Origin: an uncultured Clostridia bacterium
GTDB taxonomy: Bacteria > Bacillota_A > Clostridia > Christensenellales > Aristaeellaceae
Assembly (NCBI GenBank): GCA_947165745.1
Contig: CAMVBO010000060.1
Coordinates: forward strand, 1-8,099
Direction: 5' to 3'
DNA length: 8,099 bases
Both the position numbers and the translations under genes were made by a program. Positions 207-7,917 of the stretch are shown in pieces (within the stretch, counting starts at the first letter, position 1; the number at the start of each line of letters is the position of its first letter). The notes beneath the pieces are model-generated. The model was not told the DNA's origin, ran no database searches, and was given only the letters and a program-made list of their open reading frames with translations.

Positions 207-2072
207 ATGACCGATATTCAAAGAAGGCCCTGGAACGGCGCGCGCATGTCGCCGGAGCTGGAGTTCAAGATCAAAAGCCTGCCGGATTCGCCGGGCTGCT
301 ACCTGATGAAGTCCGGGGGCGTCAGCCAGTACTTCCACTGGTCCGCCCAGCACACCCCGAAGGTGCGGGCGATGGTGGAGAAGATCGACGATTTCGACAT
401 CATGCTGGTAGACAATGAGCTGGAGGCCTTCACGCTGGAGTGCAACCTGATCAAGCTGCACATGCCCCACTACAACATCCTGCTGAAGGACGACAAGGCC
501 TATCCCTACATCCGCGTGGACCTGCGGGAGGACTTCCCCCGGGTGGACCTGGCCCGCCGCCAGGAGCGGGACGGCGCCCGCTATTTCGGCCCCTACCAGG
601 GGGCCACCGTGGTGCGGGAGGTGCTGGACGTGGTGCGCATGGTGTTCCCGATCCGGGTGTGCAAAAGGGCGCTGAACCCGGATAAGCCCCTGCGGCCCTG
701 CGTGCACCACCAGGTGGGCCAGTGCCCCGCCCCCTGCGCCGGGCTGATCTCCGGGGAGGACTACCGCCAGACCATTTTGAAGGTCATCGACTTCCTGAAC
801 GGGAAGTACGCGCCGGTGCTGGACGAGATGAAGGAGCGGATGATGGAGGCCTCGAAGGCCATGAACTACGAGCGCGCCGCCCTCTACCGGGACCGCATCC
901 GCGCCGTGGAGGCCGTGATGCAGAAGCAGAAGGCCATCTCCACCGCCCAGACCGACCAGGACATCATCGCCGTGCTGCCCCACGACGCCGACGCCATGGT
1001 GCAGCTGATGTTCGTGCGCTCCGGGCGGATGATCGGCTCCGAGCGATTCACGCTGGAAGGGGCCGCAGACGAGCCCCAGGGCGAGATCCTGACCCAATTC
1101 ATGCTGCAATACTACGGCCCGGAGATCACCCCGCCCCGGGAGATATTGCTCTCGGCCACCCCGCCGGAGCACGACGTGATCGAGCAGCTGCTGTCCGAGC
1201 AGCACGGCGCGCGCACCTACATCCTCACGCCCCGTCGGGGCGAGAAGCTGAAGCTGGTGCGCATGGCGCTCAAAAACCTGAAGGACGAGGCGAAAAAGCT
1301 GGACCGCCGGAACGCGAACAGCCGCGCGCGGACCATCGGCGCGCTGGAGGAGCTGCAGGCGGTTCTGAACCTGCCCGCGCTGCCCCGGCGCATCGAGGGC
1401 TACGACATCTCCAACACCCAGGGCGCCCAGAGCGTGGCCAGCGAGGTGGTCATGGTGGACGGCGTCAGCGCCAACAAGGAGTATCGCCACTACCGCATCA
1501 AGACCGTCGAGGGCGCCAACGACTTCGCCAGCATGTACGAGGTCATCACCCGGCGGCTTTCCCACGGGCTGGATGAGATGGAGGCGCGCAAGGCCGCCGG
1601 GCTGGACCCCCAGGGCGGCAAGTTCTCCTGGCTGCCCGACCTCATTCTGGTGGACGGTGGGCGGGGCCAGCTGGCCGCGGCCATGGAGGCCATGGAAGGC
1701 CAGGGGCTGAACATCCCGATGATCGGCCTGGCCAAGCGCATCGAGGAGATCGTGCTGCCCGGCCAGGAGGAGAGCGTGCTGCTGGACCGACACTCCCCCG
1801 CGCTGCACCTGATTCAGCGGGTGCGCGACGAGAGCCACCGCTTCGCCATCATCCACCACCGCACCCTGCGGGGCCGCGCCTCCATCGCCTCCCGGCTGGA
1901 CGGCATCCCCGGCGTGGGCGAAAAGCGGCGCAAGGCGATCCTCAAGCACTTCAAGACCGTGGAGGCGCTGCGCGCCGCCAGTCTGGATGAGATCAAGGCG
2001 GTCCCGGGCATGCCGGAGAAGGTGGCCGAGTCCGTGTACAACTTCATGCGGCAGGACGAAAAGGGCGGCTGA
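207..2072 (+). CDS. uvrC: Excinuclease ABC subunit C with a gap in the GIY-YIG domain
   Basis: UvrC makes the two incisions around a lesion held by UvrA/UvrB in nucleotide excision repair. The ATG at 207 (621 aa) is chosen because AGGAGG lies at 197-202; an upstream in-frame ATG at 168 falls inside the repeat element. Visible parts: SLPDSPGCYLMK (24-35) and LECNLIK..HYN (77-90) of the GIY-YIG nuclease; four cysteines C152, C165, C173, C177 expected to bind an Fe-S cluster; a UVR (UvrB-binding) motif around 195-232; an RNase H-like 5'-incision domain with D400 (YDISNTQG), D483 (VDGGRGQL) and H544 (DESHRFA); and tandem helix-hairpin-helix motifs at about 563-615. Oddity: MKSGG runs straight into VSQYFH, so the usual segment with YVGKAKxLKNR, about 14 residues, is absent. 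The reading frame is kept. Identity is certain; full activity is doubtful. Confidence 0.95.
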   Translation: MTDIQRRPWNGARMSPELEFKIKSLPDSPGCYLMKSGGVSQYFHWSAQHTPKVRAMVEKIDDFDIMLVDNELEAFTLECNLIKLHMPHYNILLKDDKAYPYIRVDLREDFPRVDLARRQERDGARYFGPYQGATVVREVLDVVRMVFPIRVCKRALNPDKPLRPCVHHQVGQCPAPCAGLISGEDYRQTILKVIDFLNGKYAPVLDEMKERMMEASKAMNYERAALYRDRIRAVEAVMQKQKAISTAQTDQDIIAVLPHDADAMVQLMFVRSGRMIGSERFTLEGAADEPQGEILTQFMLQYYGPEITPPREILLSATPPEHDVIEQLLSEQHGARTYILTPRRGEKLKLVRMALKNLKDEAKKLDRRNANSRARTIGALEELQAVLNLPALPRRIEGYDISNTQGAQSVASEVVMVDGVSANKEYRHYRIKTVEGANDFASMYEVITRRLSHGLDEMEARKAAGLDPQGGKFSWLPDLILVDGGRGQLAAAMEAMEGQGLNIPMIGLAKRIEEIVLPGQEESVLLDRHSPALHLIQRVRDESHRFAIIHHRTLRGRASIASRLDGIPGVGEKRRKAILKHFKTVEALRAASLDEIKAVPGMPEKVAESVYNFMRQDEKGG

Positions 2073-5904: not shown

Positions 5905-7917
5905 GTGTTGGCCAGGCATGCCGGGTTCTGCTTCGGCGTCCGCCGTGCGGTGGAAACCGCCGAGCGATCGGCCCCGGCGGTCACGCTCGGCCCCATCATC
6001 CACAACCCGCAGGTGGTCCAATCCCTGGCCGCCCTGGGCGTCACCAGTGCCGGCGCGCCTTCGGACATTCCCGAGGGCACCCGCGTAGTGATCCGCTCCC
6101 ACGGCGTCGGCCGACAGGCCTATGAGGCGCTGAAGGCCCGCGGCTGCGAAATCGTGGACGCCACCTGCCCCTTCGTGCAGCGGATCCACGACATGGCCCG
6201 CGCCGCGTCGAAGTCCGGCACGCCGCTGATCGTCATCGGCGAGGCGGAACACCCGGAGGTGCAAGGCATACTGGGCTGGACGGACGGACCCGCCTTCGCC
6301 GTGATGACGGAGGAGGATGTCCGCGCCCTTCCCCCGCTGGAAAGCGCCCTGGTCGTGGCCCAGACCACCATGGTGGAGGAAACCTTCGACCAGCTGTGTC
6401 GGGCGCTGGAAAAGCGCGTGCCCCGGCTGGACATCCACGCCACCATCTGCACCGCCACCCGTGACCGCCAGAAAGAGGTGGCCGACATCGCCCGCCAGGC
6501 GGACGTGATGCTGGTCGTCGGCGGACGGGAAAGTTCAAACAGTCGCAAGCTGTACAGGCTCGCTGCTGATAGTTGCCGCAGGACTTATTTCATCGAGACC
6601 GCGGCGGAATTGGACGGAATCGCCATCGGCCCGTCCGATACGATTGGGATTACAGCCGGTGCATCCACGCCGGATTGTATCATTAAGGAGGTTGTTGCAA
6701 GAATGAACGACATCGAGAAGAAAGTCACCCCCGAAGAGAACCAGGAACTTGAAGTCATGTCAGAAGAAGCCATTGACAAGACCATAGTTCAAATTCGCCC
6801 CGGCCAGATCATCACTGGCAAGGTCGAAATGATCACCGACGATGAGGTTTGCGTCAACATCGGCTACAAGTCTGACGGTATCGTTAAGAAATCCGAGCTT
6901 TCTTCCACCGATGTCAAGGAAGGCGATGAGATCGAAGTTGAGGTCGTCAAGGTGAATGACGGCGAAGGCAACGTTCTGCTTTCCCAGAAGAACATCATCA
7001 ACCGCAAGGCTTGGGAAGAGATCTGCGCCAAGGAAGAGGCCGGCGAGTTCGTCGAAGGCATAGGCAAGGAGGCCGTCAAGGGCGGTCTGCTCGCCGACGT
7101 GGCGGGCGTTCGCACCTTCATCCCCGCGTCTCAGCTCTCCCTGCGCTATGTCGAGAAGATCGACGAGTTCGTGGGCCAGCCCATGACCCTGAAGATCATC
7201 GAGATCGACAAGGCCAAGAAGCGCATCGTCGCCAGCCGCAAGGCCGTGCTGATGGCTGAAGAGGCCGAGAAGAAGAAGAAGATCTGGGAGAACCTGGAAG
7301 TCGGCGCCATCGTGAAGGGCACCGTTCGCCGCCTGGCGGACTTCGGCGCCTTCGTGGATATCGGCGGTGTGGACGGCCTGGTGCACGTCACCGACCTCAG
7401 CTGGGGCCGCGTGAAGCATCCCTCCGACGTGGTTTCCGTCGGCCAGCAGATCGACGTGAAGATCCTGAACATCGATCCCGAGCGCGAGCGCATCTCCCTG
7501 TCCTACAAGCAGACCCAGCCCCGCCCCTGGACGGTCGCCGGTGAGAAGTATCCCGTCGGCTCCGTGGTGGAGGGCAAGGTCGTCCGCATCACCACCTTCG
7601 GCGCGTTCGTGGAGCTGGAGCCCGGCCTGGACGGCCTGGTGCACATCAGCCAGTGCGCCCTGACCCGCATCGCGAAGGTCGAGGACGCCGTGAACGTGGG
7701 CGACATCGTGCGCGTGAAGGTGCTGGATGTCAACACCGAAGCCAAGCGCATCTCCCTGTCTATCCGCGAGGTGCTGGAGGACGAGGCGCTGGCCAGCGAC
7801 GAGGGCGAGTATGACATCGACGAGATCCCCGCCGAGGAGGAGTACGTCGAGGAAGCGCCCGTTGAGGAAGCTCCCGTGGAAGAGGCTCCCGCCGAGGAAG
7901 CGCCCGTCGAGGAATAA
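5905..7917 (+). CDS. ispH-rpsA: IspH-ribosomal protein S1 fusion
   Basis: The N-terminal third (to about 266) is IspH, the [4Fe-4S] HMBPP reductase ending the MEP pathway to IPP and DMAPP. Cluster cysteines are C9 (GFCFGV), C88 (DATCPF) and C182 (TICTATRDRQ). Substrate residues include H33, H66 (SHGV), H116 and E118 (AEHPEV), the SSNS motif at 210-213, and GASTP (252-256). From 267 on it is S1, the 30S mRNA-binding protein, with four OB-fold S1 domains at about 298-362, 384-446, 467-534 and 552-620. An acidic tail follows, with four VEEAP-type pentapeptides (648-667). Such fusions are known in Clostridia. The listed start, GTG 5905, is the first usable in-frame codon but has no close ribosome binding site; the true start is probably about six codons upstream. 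An internal start at 6703 may yield free S1. A terminator follows 13 bases after the stop. Confidence 0.93.
   Translation: MLARHAGFCFGVRRAVETAERSAPAVTLGPIIHNPQVVQSLAALGVTSAGAPSDIPEGTRVVIRSHGVGRQAYEALKARGCEIVDATCPFVQRIHDMARAASKSGTPLIVIGEAEHPEVQGILGWTDGPAFAVMTEEDVRALPPLESALVVAQTTMVEETFDQLCRALEKRVPRLDIHATICTATRDRQKEVADIARQADVMLVVGGRESSNSRKLYRLAADSCRRTYFIETAAELDGIAIGPSDTIGITAGASTPDCIIKEVVARMNDIEKKVTPEENQELEVMSEEAIDKTIVQIRPGQIITGKVEMITDDEVCVNIGYKSDGIVKKSELSSTDVKEGDEIEVEVVKVNDGEGNVLLSQKNIINRKAWEEICAKEEAGEFVEGIGKEAVKGGLLADVAGVRTFIPASQLSLRYVEKIDEFVGQPMTLKIIEIDKAKKRIVASRKAVLMAEEAEKKKKIWENLEVGAIVKGTVRRLADFGAFVDIGGVDGLVHVTDLSWGRVKHPSDVVSVGQQIDVKILNIDPERERISLSYKQTQPRPWTVAGEKYPVGSVVEGKVVRITTFGAFVELEPGLDGLVHISQCALTRIAKVEDAVNVGDIVRVKVLDVNTEAKRISLSIREVLEDEALASDEGEYDIDEIPAEEEYVEEAPVEEAPVEEAPAEEAPVEE
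6685..6705 (+). promoter_or_regulatory. Internal Shine-Dalgarno and ATG at the IspH/S1 boundary
   Basis: AAGGAGG (6685-6691) is a near-perfect ribosome binding site inside the IspH coding sequence. ATG follows at 6703, 11 bases on, in frame as M267. This is exactly where IspH homology ends and the S1 part begins. Translation from here would give a free S1 of 404 aa ending at 7917. The spacing is slightly long but usable. It may be a relic of once separate genes or a working second start. Confidence 0.5.

Follow-up and report, generated by a model that had tools for sequence, protein, structure and literature searches.

UvrC gene and its neighborhood

The window, i.e. the whole 8,099-nucleotide stretch of DNA analyzed here, comes from an uncultured Clostridia bacterium, most of whose relatives are MAGs from rumen and gut. 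It contains a uvrC gene, a DUF559 gene, genes for a PepV-like dipeptidase, a (d)CMP kinase and an acyltransferase, and a fused IspH-ribosomal protein S1 gene (Table 1). The uvrC product belonged to the UvrC family (TIGR00194, 512.9 bits against a cut-off of 285.45; NF001824, 528.2 bits against a cut-off of 451). Profiles and alignment to 2nrt and 3c65 revealed that the UVR motif, the RNase H-like domain and the C-terminal HhH domain were all present, and the profile matches and the 2nrt alignment agreed with the initial annotation, which had described these other domains of the protein as intact. The GIY-YIG domain, however, was not intact in this protein and lacked the second Tyr as well as the Lys and Arg (Y29, K32 and R39 in 1ycz). 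A profile search of the window UvrC gave no GIY-YIG (PF01541) match at E <= 0.001; the missing Pfam match was rejected as a test for the deletion, since intact relatives (e.g. P0003) also had no precomputed PF01541 match. Sequence clustering placed the window UvrC in a cluster of one sequence from one contig.

Table 1. Features of the window uvrC gene and private gaps observed in sister contigs
Feature	Sequence	Position	Strand	Remarks
uvrC	window	207..2072	+	621 aa counted from ATG 207; conserved start is ATG 246; carries the deletion
GIY-YIG domain remnant, N-terminal	window	246..540	+	lacks strand 2 and the beginning of the helix after it
Deletion junction, 42 bases absent compared with relatives	window	318..321	+	breakpoint ambiguous, 3-base microhomology (GCG)
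UVR (UvrB-binding) motif, intact	window	816..914	+	PF02151, 33.2 bits
RNase H-like 5'-incision region, intact	window	954..1850	+	PF22920, 108.4 bits; PF08459, 171.9 bits; alignment to 2nrt
Tandem helix-hairpin-helix (HhH) domain, intact	window	1893..2060	+	PF14520, 47.9 bits; PF12826, 46 bits
31-base private deletion in uvrC	L027			frameshift
93-base private deletion in pepV	L005	8769		in frame
65-base private deletion in pepV	L025	10059		frameshift
157-base private deletion in pepV	L012	4810		frameshift
43-base gap in ispH (IspH-S1 copy)	L025	13388		frameshifting; comparison of 12 of 33 loci

Some other features of the window were also observed. The fused IspH-ribosomal protein S1 gene (5905-7917; NF000907, 750.5 bits) represents a known bifunctional arrangement. 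The match of the DUF559 ORF (2275-2736) was confined to positions 4-69 of a profile with 109 positions, and a plausible continuation of the domain could be seen by eye in another frame, so that the gene looks frameshifted; the relatives L001, L008, L013 and L021 gave partial matches only. This gene is adjoined by a 25-base inverted repeat (2158-2182 and 2253-2277, 96% complementary), and the exact core of the left arm occurred once in one of 45 loci, L013, near the DUF559 match of that locus. Just upstream of uvrC, repeat units of the AGGCAATA type (59-173) form a 39-base inverted repeat (82% complementary), and such a unit recurred in one of 45 loci (L030, at 9684-9721).

The gap in the GIY-YIG domain

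The nearest locus to the window, L030 in the rumen MAG RUG103, encodes an orthodox bacterial UvrC (TIGR00194) that shares with the window UvrC the full-length gene, the UVR motif, the RNase H-like domain and the HhH domain, at 93% protein identity. In contrast, 42 bases of its GIY-YIG domain have no counterpart in the window: comparison with L030 showed that exactly 42 bases, or 14 codons, were gone with the frame preserved, and that the sequence at 318-321 ran from ...ATGAAGTCCGGGG directly into GCGTCAGCCAGTAC... The flanks of the gap within the GIY-YIG domain were well conserved in the alignment with relatives. When the L030 domain was mapped onto 1ycz, the missing block corresponded to V26-R39 of the T. 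maritima UvrC chain, including Y29, K32 and R39, of which Lys32 and Arg39 are catalytic; Y19 was retained, as was the conserved portion further along the domain. Among 18 relatives that were 65-96% identical to the window across the GIY-YIG domain, 8 of the 14 positions of this block were invariant, including the equivalents of Y29, K32 and R39, and three more were nearly so. The observation of a clean in-frame loss of 42 bases that took away the second Tyr together with the Lys and Arg, made in the initial annotation, is confirmed by the exact comparison with L030 and by the 1ycz mapping. With regard to the junction itself, microhomology of at least 3 bases would accompany 11% of all possible 42-base deletions of L030 uvrC. 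A hairpin in the deleted stretch was considered as the cause and rejected, as the predicted DNA folding of L030:6046-6146 was unremarkable (z -0.24).

In the model of the intact L030 domain, the block comprises the strand 26-33 and the beginning of the helix 36-44. The predicted model of the shortened domain had a mean pLDDT of 45.9 (AlphaFold, 19 rows), compared with 76.8 (18 rows) for the intact L030 domain, which was confident in only two of five models and is thus an imperfect control. The shortened GIY-YIG domain is therefore predicted to have no stable fold. A protein translated from this sequence as it stands should have no 3'-incision nuclease, and the earlier expectation that 3' incision would be lost appears to hold by homology, as the block with the equivalents of Y29, K32 and R39 is absent. 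Laboratory GIY-YIG point mutants of UvrC also exist besides those of T. maritima and H. pylori, which are among the closest comparisons here. A change of the second Tyr in UvrC is reported to abolish activity (PMC9426483); such mutants (the second Tyr in T. maritima and a Tyr in H. pylori) resemble the window UvrC in that the same catalytic residues are lost and loss of 3' incision is predicted. However, the laboratory mutants carry substitutions in an otherwise complete domain, whereas a structural segment is gone from the window UvrC and the domain is predicted to be unfolded.

Distribution of the gap among relatives

A reading of the gap as a trait, one of those in the initial annotation, was not supported. 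The segment was present in all 33 genome loci found, so that close relatives do carry the missing bases, a finding that the initial annotation itself had named as evidence against the loss, and one of them was identical to the window at 246-409 apart from the gap. The motif was also kept in all 139 other proteins covering the region among the matches listed (138 by a strict pattern, plus P0136 with one residue changed); these were drawn from 141 proteins seen, leaving out the window's own and P0095, a fragment that starts after the region. A search with residues 20-62, which includes junction-spanning words, gave no second case of the junction among the 120 listed of 373 proteins. In an alignment of 120 listed of 7997 UvrC proteins, a set that favors intact reading frames, the only internal gap of such size was that of the window, and the gaps of P0105 and P0110 were N-terminal alignment effects. 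No evolved UvrC lineage devoid of GIY-YIG was detected, with the same gap in 0 of the 33 loci and in none of the 139 other listed proteins that cover the region. Nor was a naturally occurring UvrC devoid of GIY-YIG apparent from the titles and first abstract lines of the papers listed in literature searches, or from passages of PMC1564403, PMC7835731 and PMC9426483, which is no proof that none has been published. Judging from the sequences compared, the gap is not a lineage trait.

The possibility that the organism relies on a second, Cho-like nuclease, also suggested earlier, was not borne out. In E. coli, the 3' cut can be made by Cho, with UvrC then responsible for the 5' cut (PMC1564403). 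A UvrC that has lost 3' incision would naturally be partnered by Cho (NF007833), but none was found in the 12 sister genomes, where no protein exceeded the cut-off of the NF007833 model and UvrC alone matched it. The window UvrC itself is not Cho (23 bits against a cut-off of 367 bits). The GIY-YIG profile detected UvrC in all 12 sister genomes, plus eight other places in five genomes. Three of these eight proteins were compared with NCBIfam and gave a weak UvrC-like match (19.3 bits), a weak intron-endonuclease match (21.9 bits) and no match, respectively. The other five, whose translations were inspected by eye, were short frames with a single domain, 127-187 residues long from stop to stop, that resembled two of the scanned ones, and one of them had an internal stop. 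Thus, none of the eight places looks Cho-like from its sequence.

Age of the event and mosaic structure of the contig

Apart from the gap, the window was identical to L030 across 164 bases (246-409), and the next mismatches occurred at 410 and 485. The two uvrC genes differed at 134 of 1814 compared positions overall, and the sequences diverged again upstream of the conserved start ATG at 246. Since 246-409 matches the intact L030 apart from the 42 bases, the deletion is either very recent or artefactual. Relaxed selection, which could mark an old loss, was not seen: dN/dS of the remaining uvrC was 0.185 against L030, an ordinary value given that all pairs of eight sequences ranged from 0.08 to 0.22. 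The window UvrC had 5 private amino-acid changes, compared with 0-9 in the seven other sequences.

Similarity to L030 varied strongly along the contig. L030-like blocks (246-484 and 672-1042) alternated with divergent ones inside uvrC, and identity to L030 was approximately 99% at 251-500 and 751-1000 and approximately 90-92% between and after. Much of the remaining window was closer to L001 or L025 than to L030, and high identity near 6751 and 7501 was common to nearly all loci compared there. Given this blockwise variation, the contig is, on this comparison, a mosaic, which could have formed via natural recombination or the joining of co-occurring strains.

Private gaps in sister contigs

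The background frequency of such gaps was surveyed by aligning five conserved genes from loci filtered for a best stretch of at least 70% identity, 90% coverage and no large expansion, and leaving end gaps uncounted. Private deletions of at least 31 bases were found in 4 of 75 non-window gene copies, and no private gap was observed in the other aligned conserved genes of the window. At this rate, approximately 0.3 gaps of such kind would be expected per five-gene window; thus, one such gap in a five-gene window is not remarkable. In addition, the L025 copy of IspH-S1, left out of the 75-copy survey by the coverage filter, had the 43-base gap shown in Table 1, and the IspH-S1 gene of L008 had an 11-base frameshifting insertion that represents a tandem duplication. 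A cell that depends on the MEP pathway should not survive the loss of ispH, and therefore the L025 gap is probably artefactual. Since both ispH and rpsA are presumed essential genes, the gaps in sister contigs point to a certain rate of assembly or library artefacts in this material. On assembly artefacts, PMC8567270 provides general background only.

Origin of the gap

The gap was private among the sequences seen and adjoined near-identical intact sequence. Most likely, it reflects either an assembly error or a fresh mutation of one strain, and not a novel type of repair enzyme. Between the two, we lean towards an assembly or sequencing artefact, and the initial annotation was right to flag this alternative. 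An otherwise ordinary housekeeping uvrC of uncultured Clostridia would then have lost 42 bases in one 8.1-kb contig, and the loss would most likely be absent from the population of the organism. We infer an in vitro or in silico origin, in which the gap was probably introduced by an aberrant read, or when reads of co-occurring strains were joined, in the course of library preparation or assembly; around uvrC itself, the contig has a mosaic appearance, as might be expected for a mixed-strain contig. First, the gap is unique among the sequences compared, with the segment intact in 33 of 33 loci and in all 139 other proteins that cover it. Second, the alternation of L030-like and divergent blocks fits a mixed-strain contig, although mosaicism can also arise by natural recombination. 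Third, sister contigs have private gaps of this kind too, both in the 4 of 75 gene copies and, out of frame, over 43 bases of the L025 ispH. Finally, the DUF559 gene on the same contig looks frameshifted too, although this may be a real relic.

On the other hand, several facts do not favor an artefact. A k-mer assembler does not collapse sequence over three bases without reads spanning the junction; the 3-base microhomology is too short for such collapse by itself, which means that the junction must have been present in some molecule or read. Moreover, the loss is in frame, which has a chance of 1 in 3, and the other aligned conserved genes of the window have no private gap. The fact that this is the sole internal gap of its size among the 120 listed UvrC proteins also suggests that in-frame artefacts are uncommon in uvrC.

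The main rival, a genuine and very recent deletion in one strain through slippage or end-joining at the GCG microhomology, with loss of function, is possible but somewhat doubtful. Its best arguments are the kept frame and the short microhomology, which make a clean junction. In addition, the flanks are identical to the intact allele, as they would be for a fresh mutation, dN/dS elsewhere in uvrC is ordinary (0.185 against L030), and the remaining domain is predicted to be unfolded whereas the intact one folds in its best models. However, no second instance was found in the 33 loci or the proteins listed, and comparable gaps in sister contigs strike a gene expected to be essential, which suggests a background of artefacts. 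If the deletion were genuine, the GIY-YIG domain would be unable to fold or cut and 3' incision would be lost. Since 5' incision normally comes after 3' incision, nucleotide excision repair would be effectively dead in the strain, and such a repair-null allele would probably be short-lived.

An evolved 'half-UvrC', making only the 5' incision and partnered with a separate Cho-like 3' nuclease, is very unlikely: all domains besides GIY-YIG are intact, the gene is under normal constraint and the division of cuts described for E. coli Cho and UvrC (PMC1564403) offers a parallel, but the gap is common to no relative seen, the retained GIY-YIG half matches the intact allele letter for letter at 246-409 with no relaxation, the Cho model exceeded its cut-off in 0 of 12 sister genomes and the eight other GIY-YIG places are unlike Cho. 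Even less credible is a strain with a fixed UvrC that makes the 5' cut only while another nuclease supplies the 3' cut.

Only a lineage-wide loss would alter views of bacterial excision repair, and the relatives examined show none. Our results have little significance apart from a call for caution: metagenome contigs can be expected to contain single-copy gaps in which catalytic motifs are lost, and a gap being in frame does not prove that it is biological. A genuine deletion would point to a strain deficient in repair within its community.
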